From the NCBI RefSeq assembly GCF_025136295.1, contig NZ_CP062788.1, positions 62,001 to 126,000 of the forward strand: a stretch of DNA of 64,000 nucleotides. Reading direction: 5' to 3'. The DNA comes from Aestuariispira ectoiniformans. Lineage in GTDB: Bacteria > Pseudomonadota > Alphaproteobacteria > UBA8366 > Aestuariispiraceae. The notes under the pieces are model-generated. The model did not search any database. It saw only the letters and a list, made by a program, of their open reading frames with translations, and was not told the DNA's origin. Positions 15,888 through 20,273 of this stretch are shown here, in pieces. The position numbers were made by a program, and so were the translations under genes. The first letter of the stretch is position 1; the number at the start of each line of letters is the position of its first letter.

Positions 15888-16203
15888 TAGAGGAATCCCA
15901 TCTCGTGCTGCGAGTCGGCCCTTAAAATTCACGTATTTGATGGGAGACAAGTAACTGCACAGTCACGCTTTATGCTTTACGGACTACTGCCCGCCAGAAC
16001 TCCCTGACCAATCAGTCAACTTCTCTCTCCGACTTTCCTGCGTTTTTTTGATATTCCCCCTCTGGTCAAGCGGGATCACTTGCTGTACATCTGCGCCGCC
16101 TAAGGACCCTGTTTCTGGATCGAGGCACGCCGAACACCTGCCGGCGCGATCCGACAAGGCCATGGGCGCAAACTCCAACCCCGGGAATCAAGGATTTTGC
16201 GCG
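15888..16203. other. carB leader region (316 bp)
   Basis: No gene is supported here. The frame that extends carB upstream to 16048 has no family similarity and lies in front of the standard CarB N-terminus, so it is leader, not coding. I see no T-tailed hairpin that would end the DUF4112 transcript, no riboswitch I recognise and no clear sigma-70 promoter. A short leftward frame at 15984-16178 has no ribosome site. Confidence 0.55.
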
Positions 16204-19200
16204 ATGCCAAAACGTACCGACATCGATACCGTCCTCATCATCGGCGCCGGCCCGATCATTATCGGCCAGGCTTGCGAATTCGACTATTCAGGCACCCAGG
16301 CCTGTAAGGCCCTGAAGGACGAAGGCTATCGTGTCGTTCTGGTGAACTCTAATCCGGCGACGATCATGACCGATCCGGGCACGGCGGACGCCACCTATGT
16401 GGAACCGATCACACCTGCTGTGGTGGCCAAGATCCTGGAACGAGAACTGGCGGAACGCCCCGACGACAAGCTGGTGGTCCTGCCCACCATGGGCGGTCAG
16501 ACGGCACTGAACACAGCCCTTGCCCTGGATCAGGATGGCACGCTGGAACGACTGGGCGTGGAAATGATTGGCGCCAATGCCGACGTCATCGACAAGGCGG
16601 AAGACCGCCAGCGCTTCCGCGCGGCCATGGACAAAATCGGCCTGGAAAGCGCCAAGTCCCGCCAGGTGGGCACCCTGGAAGACGCGATTGAGGCGCTGGA
16701 TCATATCGGCCTGCCCGCCATCATCCGGCCCAGCTTTACCCTGGGCGGCACCGGCGGCGGCGTGGCCTACAACGTCGAGGAATACAAGAAAATCGTCGAA
16801 AGCGGCCTGAAAGCCTCCCCGGTAACGACGGTTCTGGTCGAAGAATCGATCCTTGGCTGGAAAGAGTATGAGATGGAAGTCGTCCGCGACAAGGACGATA
16901 ACTGCATCATCATCTGCGCCATCGAAAACATCGACCCGATGGGCGTTCACACCGGCGACAGCATCACCGTCGCCCCTGCCCTGACCCTGACCGACAAAGA
17001 ATATCAGATCATGCGGAACGCCTCGATTGCGGTCCTGCGTGAAATCGGGGTCGAGACCGGCGGGTCCAACGTACAGTTCGCGGTCGACCCGGACAGCGGC
17101 CGCCTGATTGTGATCGAGATGAACCCGCGTGTGTCGCGGTCGTCTGCACTGGCTTCCAAGGCAACCGGCTTCCCGATCGCCAAGATCGCGGCCAAACTGG
17201 CGGTCGGCTATACGCTGGACGAGTTGAAGAACGACATCACCATGGTGACCCCGGCCAGCTTTGAGCCGACCATCGACTATGTGGTCACCAAGATGCCGCG
17301 CTTCACCTTCGAGAAATTCCCCGGCTCCGAACCGATGCTGACCACGGCGATGAAATCCGTGGGCGAGGCCATGTCCATCGGCCGCAGCTTTGCGGAATCC
17401 CTGCAGAAAGCCCTGCGGTCCATGGAAACCGGCCTGACCGGCCTGAATGATGTCGAGATCGAAGGCGCGATCGACGAAAACAACGAAGTCCACAAAGGCG
17501 CCATTCGCGCAGCCATTTCCCGGACGACCCCGGACCGGCTGCTGAAAGTGGCCCAGGCCTTCCGCCATGGCCTGACCATGGAAGAGATTTACAGCGCCAC
17601 CAAGATCGACCGCTGGTTCCTGCGCCAGATCGAACATCTGGTCCAGGCCGAAGCTGGTATTCGCAGCAACGGCCTGCCGGGCGACAAAGCGGGCCTGCTG
17701 AAACTCAAGAAGCTGGGTTTCTCCGACGAACGCCTTGCCGAGTTGAGCGGCCAGACGGAAGACGCCATTCGCGCCCTGCGCAAGCAGATCGGCGTTCAGC
17801 CGGTCTTCAAACGCATCGACACCTGTGCGTCGGAATTCCCCAGCCAGACGTCCTACATGTACTCCTGTTATGAAGGCGATGGCTTCAACCCCGCCCAGTG
17901 CGAGGCCGACATTTCGGACAAGAAGAAAGTCGTCATCCTGGGCGGCGGCCCGAACCGGATCGGCCAGGGGATCGAATTCGACTACTGCTGTGTTCATGCG
18001 GCCTATGCGCTGTCGGAAAGCGGCATCGAGTCCATCATGGTCAACTGCAACCCGGAAACGGTTTCCACCGACTATGACACCTCCGACCGGCTCTATTTCG
18101 AACCGCTGACGGCCGAAGACGTTATTGCGCTTTGCCACAAGGAGCAGGAGAAGGGCACCCTTCTCGGCGTGATCGTTCAGTTCGGCGGCCAGACACCGCT
18201 GAAGCTGTCCCATGCATTGGAAAAGGCAGGCATTCCCATCCTGGGCACGAGCCCGGATGCCATCGACCTGGCGGAAGACCGTGAACGTTTCCAGAAACTG
18301 CTGCAGGACCTCGACCTGAAGCAACCCCCGAACGGCATTGCCACCACCGAGGAACAGGCCGCACAGATTGCCGAGGATATCGGTTATCCGGTCGTTATCC
18401 GTCCGTCCTATGTTCTGGGTGGCCGCGCCATGGAGATTGTCCATAACCGCGCCGCATTGGAACGTTATATGGGGTCTGCGGTAAAGGTCTCTGGCGACAG
18501 CCCCGTTCTGATCGACTATTACCTCAAGGATGCAATTGAGGTGGATGTGGATGCGCTGTGCGATGGCACGGACGTCTTCGTCGCCGGTGTCATGGAACAT
18601 ATCGAGGAAGCCGGTATTCACTCCGGTGACAGCGCCTGCTCCCTGCCGCCCTATTCCCTGTCCGACAGTGTCATCGAGGAGATGAAGCGTCAGGCCGAGG
18701 CCCTGGCCCATGCGCTTAAGGTGATTGGTCTGATGAATATCCAGTTCGCCGTGCAGGGCCAGAATATCTTCATTCTGGAAGTGAACCCCCGCGCCAGCCG
18801 GACGGTGCCTTTTGTTGCAAAAGCAACCGGCAAGCCGGTTGCCAAAATCGCCGCCCGTATCATGGCCGGTGAGAAACTGACGGATTTCGATCTGTCGGAC
18901 ACCGCGCTCGGCGATCATATCGCGGTCAAGGAAGCGGTCTTCCCGTTTGCCCGCTTCCCGGGCGTCGACGTCATGCTTGGCCCGGAAATGCGCTCCACCG
19001 GCGAGGTGATCGGCCTGGACACCAATTTCGAAACCGCCTTCGCCAAGGCTCAGTTGGGCTGCGGTGCGGACCTCCCCGCCAAGGGCTGCGCCTTCATTTC
19101 CGTGAAGGACAGTGACAAGGAGAAGGTCCTCGACGCTGCACGCATGCTGATCGATGAGGGTATCTCGATCATCGCGACCGCAGGTACGGCCTCCTTCCTG

Positions 19201-19485
19201 CGTGAACAGGGCCTGGATGTGAAACAGGTCAACAAGGTTCAGGAAGGCCAGCCGCATATCGTGGACGCCATGATCAACGGCGAGGTGCAACTGGTCTTTA
19301 ACACGACCGAAGGCGCGCAGGCGATCAAGGACAGCTTTGCAATCCGCCAGACCGCGCTGTTGCAGAGCATCCCTTACTACACGACGGTTGCGGGCTGCCG
19401 CGCCGCCGCCAAGGCCATCCGCGCCCTGCGCAAGGATGAGCTGGACGTAGCGCCGTTGCAGAGCTATTTCCGCAAAAGCGCATAA
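16204..19485 (+). CDS. carB: Carbamoyl-phosphate synthase large subunit
   Basis: Makes carbamoyl phosphate from bicarbonate, ammonia supplied by CarA, and two ATP, for arginine and pyrimidine synthesis. The 1093-residue protein has two homologous ATP-grasp halves. The first starts '[20 protein letters not shown]' and contains '[12 protein letters not shown]'. The second starts '[17 protein letters not shown]' (about residue 577) and contains '[14 protein letters not shown]'. The C-terminal allosteric (MGS-like) domain begins near residue 960, '[15 protein letters not shown]'. The ATG at 16204 gives the standard '[16 protein letters not shown]' N-terminus. carA is not in the window. In this order carB is followed by greA, a common alphaproteobacterial arrangement. 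Confidence 0.97.
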
Positions 19486-19500
19486 TACCTGAACTGGCAA

Positions 19501-19536
19501 TATAGGCCGGGACGGCAAAGCCCGCTCCGGCCTATA
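19501..19536 (+). terminator. Weak hairpin after carB
   Basis: A perfect 10-bp inverted repeat, TATAGGCCGG (19501-19510) with CCGGCCTATA (19527-19536), starts 16 bases after the carB stop. The loop is 16 bases and GC-rich. No long T-run follows, so termination strength is uncertain. Confidence 0.45.
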
Positions 19537-19584
19537 ATATTGTTGCCGAATGCCGCCGGGACAGCGTTTTCTATTGCGCGCCCC

Positions 19585-19613
19585 TTGACCAGGGTCGGGT
19601 AAATACCTATTTT
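19585..19613 (+). promoter_or_regulatory. Sigma-70-type promoter upstream of greA
   Basis: TTGACC (5 of 6 to the -35 consensus) at 19585-19590 and TATTTT (4 of 6) at 19608-19613 are separated by exactly 17 bp. The predicted start, near 19620, lies about 145 bases before the greA ATG and ahead of a T-tailed hairpin. Confidence 0.55.
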
Positions 19614-19650
19614 CCTGCCCCTGAGCGTAATAAGGTATGCGCATGTCGGA

Positions 19651-19685
19651 TCGTGAGGTGTTGGCCTCGCGACGGTTTTTTTTTG
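19651..19685 (+). terminator. Intrinsic terminator in the greA leader
   Basis: An 8-bp stem (19651-19658 with 19665-19672, one G-T pair), a 6-base loop and an uninterrupted T-run starting at 19676. It ends about 80 bases before greA and lies downstream of the candidate promoter at 19585-19613. It could stop carB read-through or act as an attenuator that releases a short leader RNA. Confidence 0.75.
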
Positions 19686-19763
19686 TGTGTGCAAAAGTGG
19701 GTGATGCCGCAAAACGTGGATTGGCGCGGGTTCACCCCCGGATAATGAAGTGGTGTATGGCTC

Positions 19764-20237
19764 ATGGAAAAGGTCCCCATGACGCTGCGGGGCTATGAAG
19801 CCCTTCAGGCAGAACTGAAAAACTTGAAATCTGTTGAACGCCCGGCTGTCATCCAGGCAATCGCCGAAGCGCGCGAACACGGCGACCTTTCGGAAAACGC
19901 CGAATATCACGCAGCGCGAGAAAAACAGAGTTTCATCGAAGGCCGCATTCTGGAACTGGAAGACAAGACCAGCCGGGCACAGGTTTTCGACCCGGCCAAA
20001 ATGAATGGCGAGACCGTCACCTTCGCCGCGACCGTCACGGTTGCCGATTGTGATACCGACGAGGAAAAGGTCTATCAGATTGTCGGCGACCTTGAGTCCG
20101 ACATTTCCAAAGGCCTGATCTCCGTATCCTCGCCCCTGGCGCGCGGGTTGATCGGGAAATCGGAAGGCGATGTTTTCGAGTTGCACTCACCAGGCGGCAC
20201 GAAGGAATACGAAGTCGTTTCGGTCGAGTTCAAATAA
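19764..20237 (+). CDS. greA: Transcription elongation factor GreA
   Basis: Rescues stalled RNA polymerase by stimulating cleavage of the backtracked 3' RNA end. The 157-residue protein is the normal length. The N-terminal coiled coil has '[19 protein letters not shown]' and the tip motif '[20 protein letters not shown]', which contains the acidic residues that enter the polymerase secondary channel. The C-terminal globular domain includes '[10 protein letters not shown]' and '[18 protein letters not shown]'. The ATG at 19764 fits the family start. It has its own promoter-like sequence and a strong terminator, so it is probably transcribed alone. The leader arrangement is discussed in the findings. 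Confidence 0.96.
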
Positions 20238-20247
20238 ATACATAATG

Positions 20248-20273
20248 AAGCGGGGCCAAGACCCCGCTTTTTT
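20248..20273 (+). terminator. Intrinsic terminator of greA
   Basis: An 8-bp stem (20248-20255 with 20262-20269), a 6-base loop and a T-run to 20273, 10 bases after the greA stop codon. Confidence 0.9.

Follow-up and report, generated by a model that had tools for sequence, protein, structure and literature searches.

Organization of the carB-greA region

We analyzed a 64,000-nucleotide (nt) stretch of the genome of the alphaproteobacterium Aestuariispira ectoiniformans (contig NZ_CP062788.1, positions 62,001 to 126,000; hereafter the window, numbered from its first nucleotide) and focused on a possible attenuating leader of greA. The product of this gene, GreA, serves RNA polymerase as a general rescue factor. 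The greA gene occupies positions 19764–20237 of the forward strand, on which all features discussed below are located unless noted, and its ATG at 19764 falls in a start region common to relatives. Upstream of it lies carB (16204–19485, within an open reading frame (ORF) of 16048–19485), which codes for the large subunit of carbamoyl-phosphate synthase and whose start, MPKRTD, matches that of carB in the related genome G005 (the window genome is designated G000). Since a hairpin with its own T-run stands behind greA (20247–20273), this gene appears to form a one-gene unit.

A sigma70-type promoter-like site is located 100 nt behind carB (19585–19613) and consists of TTGACC at 19585–19590 (5/6 matches), a 17-nt spacer and TATTTT at 19608–19613 (4/6 matches). 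It was also picked up by a simple scan, and its position, matches and spacing are as described in an earlier note made from the sequence alone (the original prediction), though the match to the consensus is at chance level. Judging from the -10 box, transcription would start at ~19620 and generate a greA leader RNA of 144 nt (19620–19763). Inside this leader, at +32 to +65, is an intrinsic terminator-like element (19651–19684), composed of the hairpin TCGTGAGGTGTTGGCCTCGCGA at 19651–19672, the 3-nt spacer CGG and nine T residues (T9) at 19676–19684. This T-tailed hairpin was also found by the simple scan and had likewise been predicted, as had the gap between it (T9 ends at 19684) and the greA ATG. 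When the 150-nt leader was dinucleotide-shuffled 2000 times, a hairpin and T-run that scored as well appeared only twice.

Compared with relatives, in many of which a putative greA promoter is embedded in the 3' end of carB (see below), the promoter-like site of the window is relocated. The matching site in the carB 3' end of the window (19442–19470) reads TGGACG-N17-TATTTC and is degraded. Just 3' of carB and upstream of the greA promoter, we also found a long inverted repeat without a T-run (19501–19536; 15-nt arms, 87% complementary, one match in the genome), which may represent the carB 3' end or an insulator.

Terminator-like sites as a class were mildly above chance in a 10-kb scan (15 versus 10.1 expected, standard deviation 3.4). 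Counting both strands, the 4.36-Mb genome has only 12 separate T9 runs. Four of the others (L380, L382, L384 and L386) were textbook-looking terminators, with a stem that abuts the T-run, 47–68 nt behind an ORF; another (L383) had a weaker hairpin and was inside an ORF of the opposite strand, and six had no hairpin by the scoring rule used. The T9 of the greA leader, separated from its stem by the spacer, is ~190 nt behind carB and ~90 nt before greA.

We also considered a second stem, between the T-run and the ATG (19699–19737), and rejected it: stems in relatives were unrelated, and folding of this segment was no better than that of shuffles (z score +0.95 in the window and -1.84 to +0.19 in ten relatives). 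Separately, a reading frame that begins with ATG at 19637 was found by eye to cross the hairpin, T9 (read as Phe-Phe-Phe) and the greA start; no counterpart was seen, again by eye, in G003, another related genome, or in G005.

Conservation of the leader module in relatives

GreA proteins of the two nearest relatives, G003 and G005, are 83% and 80–81% identical, respectively, to that of the window. Both genomes keep the module of promoter-like site, hairpin and T-run at nearly unchanged distances: the -10 box is separated from the ATG by 150 nt in G000, 145 nt in G003 and 153 nt in G005, and the hairpin begins 37 nt past this box in G000 and 33 nt past it in both relatives. Hairpin scores were matched by 2/2000 shuffles in G003 and 0/2000 in G005. 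When the hairpin arms of the three leaders were aligned by hand, eight core stem pairs were retained, three of them with both bases changed and two with a single base changed, and outside the module the leaders aligned poorly. The comparison with relatives that had been proposed along with the original prediction yielded a conserved module with compensatory stem changes. The promoter is embedded in carB in G003 and is a separate site in G000 and G005.

In G005, a same-strand ORF of 476 amino acids, which by eye and without a family search we take to be an alanine/sodium symporter, is located between carB and greA, and the carB tail has no embedded promoter. Nevertheless, greA of this genome keeps a promoter-like site (TTGTAA-N17-TATCTT, similarly placed and with the same AAATACC 0–1 nt before the -10 box as in the window), the hairpin and T9.

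We further examined other members of the window's family. A hairpin score of at least 10 was observed in seven of 14 members (G000, G002, G003, G005, G008, G012 and G013). In family f4, which belongs to the same taxonomic order, six of seven members were aligned; all six had a hairpin at the matching place with a variable T-run, and only three of these six scored at least 10.

Association of the hairpin with greA

According to the original prediction, the hairpin could be part of an attenuator or short leader RNA of greA or, alternatively, could just end carB transcription. We scored hairpins by one rule throughout (score of at least 12 for a strong hairpin), either in the carB-greA gap or, if greA was not next, in the 120 nt behind carB; the over-sampled family f68 was cut to a few members, leaving 184 greA-adjacent loci. 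Strong hairpins were found in 31 of these 184 loci versus 1 of 37 carB loci without adjacent greA (Fisher p 0.02), and hairpins that scored at least 10 in 44/184 versus 1/37 (p 0.0016), p values that are optimistic because the loci are related. The sole strong hairpin among the non-adjacent loci was the one behind carB in G005. A hairpin that accompanies carB and not greA, which would have spoken for the carB alternative, was looked for and is not the pattern observed.

Strong hairpins were present in 23 of 122 loci with the embedded promoter and in 8 of 62 loci without it, when shuffles gave 0.4 and 0.2. In the 23 loci that have both, the predicted short RNA has a median length of 60 nt (range 36–98), if the start is assumed to be 7 nt after the -10 box. 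We also analyzed greA genes without carB next door, which are mostly from Rhodobacterales; 9 of 46 had a strong hairpin within 220 nt upstream (0.0 in shuffles), including 7 from Rhodobacterales and 2 unclassified. As judged by these sequence comparisons, the hairpin tracks greA more than carB.

It is still conceivable, if unlikely, that the hairpin is a transcription terminator of carB which occurs in the greA leader by coincidence and has no part in greA regulation. It is located between both genes, which are on the same strand, and would halt carB read-through anyway; moreover, a terminator-like hairpin is found directly behind carB in G005 (locus L232), in which carB is apart from greA. 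However, strong hairpins are rare behind carB if greA is not adjacent (1/37 versus 31/184), and the T-run in the window is much farther from the carB stop (~190 nt) than those of the four ordinary-looking T9 terminators from their ORFs (47–68 nt). In addition, the G005 module persists without carB directly upstream, although it could serve the gene that is now in this position. The carB-terminator alternative is less favored than the attenuator interpretation of the original prediction, which is partly supported for this leader by the G005 module and the locus counts. It does not extend to the class, in which most leaders have no such hairpin. The hairpin could also serve both roles at once.

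In several loci (L050, L042, L051, L101, L074 and L047), which are from Rhodobacterales or unclassified, we observed a recurring hairpin that has arms like GTCATGG and CCGTGGC, is followed by a T-rich tail and lies immediately ahead of the ribosome site of greA; its stem ends 21–28 nt before the greA start. This could be a greA leader element of its own in Rhodobacterales.

A putative promoter embedded in the carB tail

The C-terminal motif of CarB, L-E/D-V-x-x-L-Q-S-Y-F, is often encoded as CTT GAA/GAT GTN ... TAY TTT, which on the DNA level reads TTGAAG or TTGATG, 17 nt and TAYTTT. To define the occurrence of this pattern, we searched for TTGA-N19-TAY..T within the final 75 nt of carB. A set of 313 loci was reduced to 245 distinct carB ends after removal of loci whose carB 3' end was not usable and of those that repeated another locus over the last 120 nt; greA was at most 400 nt downstream in 206 of them and not in 37, and in 2 the downstream stretch was too short. 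It should be noted that the sample is uneven, as close relatives of the window are over-represented.

The pattern was detected in 122 of 206 greA-adjacent carB genes (f68 included) and in 1 of 37 others, and in that one (L205) greA is 528 nt away. Outside Alphaproteobacteria, none of 41 loci had it, although greA was within 400 nt in 29 of them. Among 23 further loci of the class, scored beyond the main counts, 7 repeat genomes already counted; the remaining 16 had the pattern in 4 of 11 greA-adjacent and 0 of 5 non-adjacent cases. In the window's family, 12 of 13 greA-adjacent members had it, the window being the sole exception. In family f160, it was present in 2 of 4 adjacent and 0 of 5 non-adjacent loci, whereas the heavily sampled f68 had it in none of 26 greA-adjacent loci. 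At least one embedded promoter was found in 54 of 80 group labels with adjacent greA and none in 26, with the proviso that these labels are partly codes and partly names, with possible overlap. We found no difference in carB-greA gap length that would make gaps longer in loci without the embedded promoter. As a separate observation, in f161, L327, L330 and L331 have CTT GAG GTT ... TAC TTT in the carB tail with greA 209–224 nt downstream, and L323 does not have it.

A tree-based test, in which adjacency and the embedded promoter were treated as independent events, was underpowered, with only 10 adjacency changes and 4 independent pairs on supported branches. What carries the association with adjacency is therefore the set of 37 non-adjacent loci, distributed over 9 group labels (14 loci in f37 and 10 in f65), together with codon usage. 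For the codon profile, we used 175 aligned carB ends (f68 was cut to a few here and in the tree). The motif Leu was CTT in 83% of Leu rows versus 12% in the background (2.04 bits); the residue after it, where Glu, was GAA in 93% versus 48% (0.69 bits); the motif Phe was TTT in 85% versus 19% (1.43 bits); and the Ser before Tyr had 0.80 bits, when each of 50 upstream codons had at most 0.43 bits. The last base of the Phe codon was T in 133 of all 175 rows and also in 45 of the 71 rows in which Phe was replaced, as a function as the sixth base of the -10 box would favor. Outside both promoter boxes, we noticed that the Ser three codons past the motif Phe (52 rows) was TCG in 62% versus 27% in the background (0.92 bits).

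We lean toward the following explanation. In many Alphaproteobacteria with carB beside greA, the last ten carB codons would serve two purposes, coding for the conserved C-terminus of CarB (LE/DV..LQSYF) and forming the main greA promoter, and selection would keep the otherwise uncommon codons, CTT for Leu and TTT for Phe. With the promoter in the carB tail, any terminator between carB and greA falls within the greA leader. RNA polymerase that completes carB would pass this promoter and the leader terminator would act on both transcripts, which would couple carB transcription physically to the supply of GreA. In the window lineage, this link may be in the course of being undone: the promoter would have gone from the carB tail by relocation, with the attenuating hairpin module remaining with greA. 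We rejected relocation as a general rule: among the 84 carB-greA loci that lack the embedded promoter, a single intergenic stretch matched the strict promoter pattern.

The putative carB-tail promoter deserves attention more than the leader itself. Intragenic promoters that read into the next gene form a general class, in which the promoter is within the coding sequence of the upstream gene; the carB case differs in that 54 of 80 family-level groups within a single class retain it, at fixed codons of one enzyme. The codon evidence may thus offer a clear class-wide case of a promoter held within the coding sequence of a metabolic gene, which can be recognized by the choice of synonymous codons and depends on whether the downstream gene is present. 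Literature searches of partial coverage found no report of it, and the main text of a study on Zymomonas transcription units (PMC7566282) has neither gene name.

A probable GraL-like attenuating leader

The hairpin goes with greA, and an attenuating leader similar to GraL of E. coli is the best reading of the window locus, and we consider it probable. According to this model, greA would be transcribed from its own sigma70-type promoter at 19585–19613; a 9-bp hairpin with nine U residues behind it would form ~31 nt from the start of the RNA, and a fraction of transcripts would end as a ~65-nt RNA, with read-through yielding GreA. The terminator would set, and may adjust, the dose of GreA as GraL does in E. 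coli, and GreA might itself act on read-through. Comparison among genomes supports the module, its link with greA and the promoter signal in the carB codons; we infer promoter use and partial termination, and feedback of GreA on its own leader is assumed by analogy.

In E. coli, the hairpin of the greA leader is at +19 to +48, its U tail extends to +59 and the AUG is at +150 (PMC6829880). The layout in the window, with a promoter-like site and, in the leader, a terminator-like hairpin, resembles it as had been predicted, with the hairpin at +32 to +53, the end of the T-run at +65 and the AUG at +145 (relative to the start placed from the -10 box); one difference is that the upstream gene is carB, and not dacB. 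According to the same source, GreA that is catalytically active reduces the level of its own expression in vivo, via GraL in cis and not via the promoter, an effect that was not seen in vitro (PMC6829880). Imprecise ends and action on other mRNAs are also features of GraL. In a survey of predicted attenuators, the greA/rnk family, in which a terminator also precedes greA, ranks seventh (Naville and Gautheret 2010, PMC2965389). Its figure 6 legend lists Pseudomonas, Enterobacteria, bacilli and Yersinia, and the word "alphaproteobacteria" is nowhere in its main text, whereas the window is from this class; its distance filter, which removes terminators closer to the upstream gene, would lose hairpins of many relatives but not that of the window. 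Attenuation ahead of greA is of an already known kind, to which the alphaproteobacterial leader would add a member or variant. No Rfam match was found anywhere in the window, with no check of whether Rfam includes a GraL family. To our knowledge, little is known of GreA dose control outside E. coli, and the comparison offers a direct test of whether the hairpin of an unrelated leader answers to GreA as GraL does.

Several observations weigh against an attenuating leader. Promoter-like sites in 10 kb numbered 4 versus 3.6 expected, and the promoter match by itself is therefore uninformative; similarly, when the gaps of the 84 carB-greA loci that lack the embedded promoter were scanned by a stricter promoter rule (gaps shorter than 40 nt were skipped), one match was obtained, that of the window, versus 0.5 expected. 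Energetically, folding of the leader as a whole is ordinary (z score -0.35). The expectation in the original prediction that most transcripts would end after ~60 nt is not supported, the stem being set off from T9 by 3 nt, whereas the stems of the four canonical-looking T9 terminators directly adjoin theirs. Seven of the 14 members of the window's family (G001, G004, G006, G007, G009, G010 and G011) have hairpins that score below 10, and in the six f4 leaders the covariation term is unfavorable (+0.95), with changes on both sides in only 2 of 25 predicted pairs. The hairpin is also a minority feature (44 of 184 greA-adjacent loci with a score of at least 10); since most alphaproteobacterial greA leaders examined have none by this rule, attenuation is not general in the class. 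Finally, an antiterminator was not evident in minimum-energy folds of the three leaders, in which only 3–4 of 8 bases of the 5' arm were paired before the 3' arm was made. A classical attenuator with a mutually exclusive antiterminator was therefore rejected, as no alternative fold holds the 5' arm of the terminator, at least by minimum-energy folding. Any adjustment of read-through would then more likely involve a factor that acts on RNA polymerase than a switch in RNA folding.

It is quite improbable that transcription of greA occurs chiefly together with that of carB, as it does in Pseudomonas aeruginosa and Xanthomonas, with the 19585 promoter being a chance match and the hairpin an intra-operon partial terminator: outside the class greA is close to carB in 29 of 41 loci and none has the embedded promoter, the window promoter matches at chance level, and 84 of 206 greA-adjacent loci of the class lack the embedded promoter, with a strict gap promoter only in the window, but 122 of 206 carry the codon-level signal in the carB tail, in G005 a different upstream gene precedes the promoter-like site and the module, and the inverted repeat at 19501–19536 stands between carB and the promoter. 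In the operon described for these organisms, carA-orf-carB-greA with a single promoter before carA (PMC4619228), carB is likewise upstream of greA on the same strand; the difference is the greA promoter-like site here, at or in the carB 3' end.

Additional observations

On the minus strand, an open frame of 1118 amino acids was found opposite carB (16288–19644), which we regard as a shadow of carB codon usage. In addition, the window genome codes for two more GreA-like proteins (C1:1444753-1445205 and 1874912-1875259), with 33% and 35% identity over the matched part.
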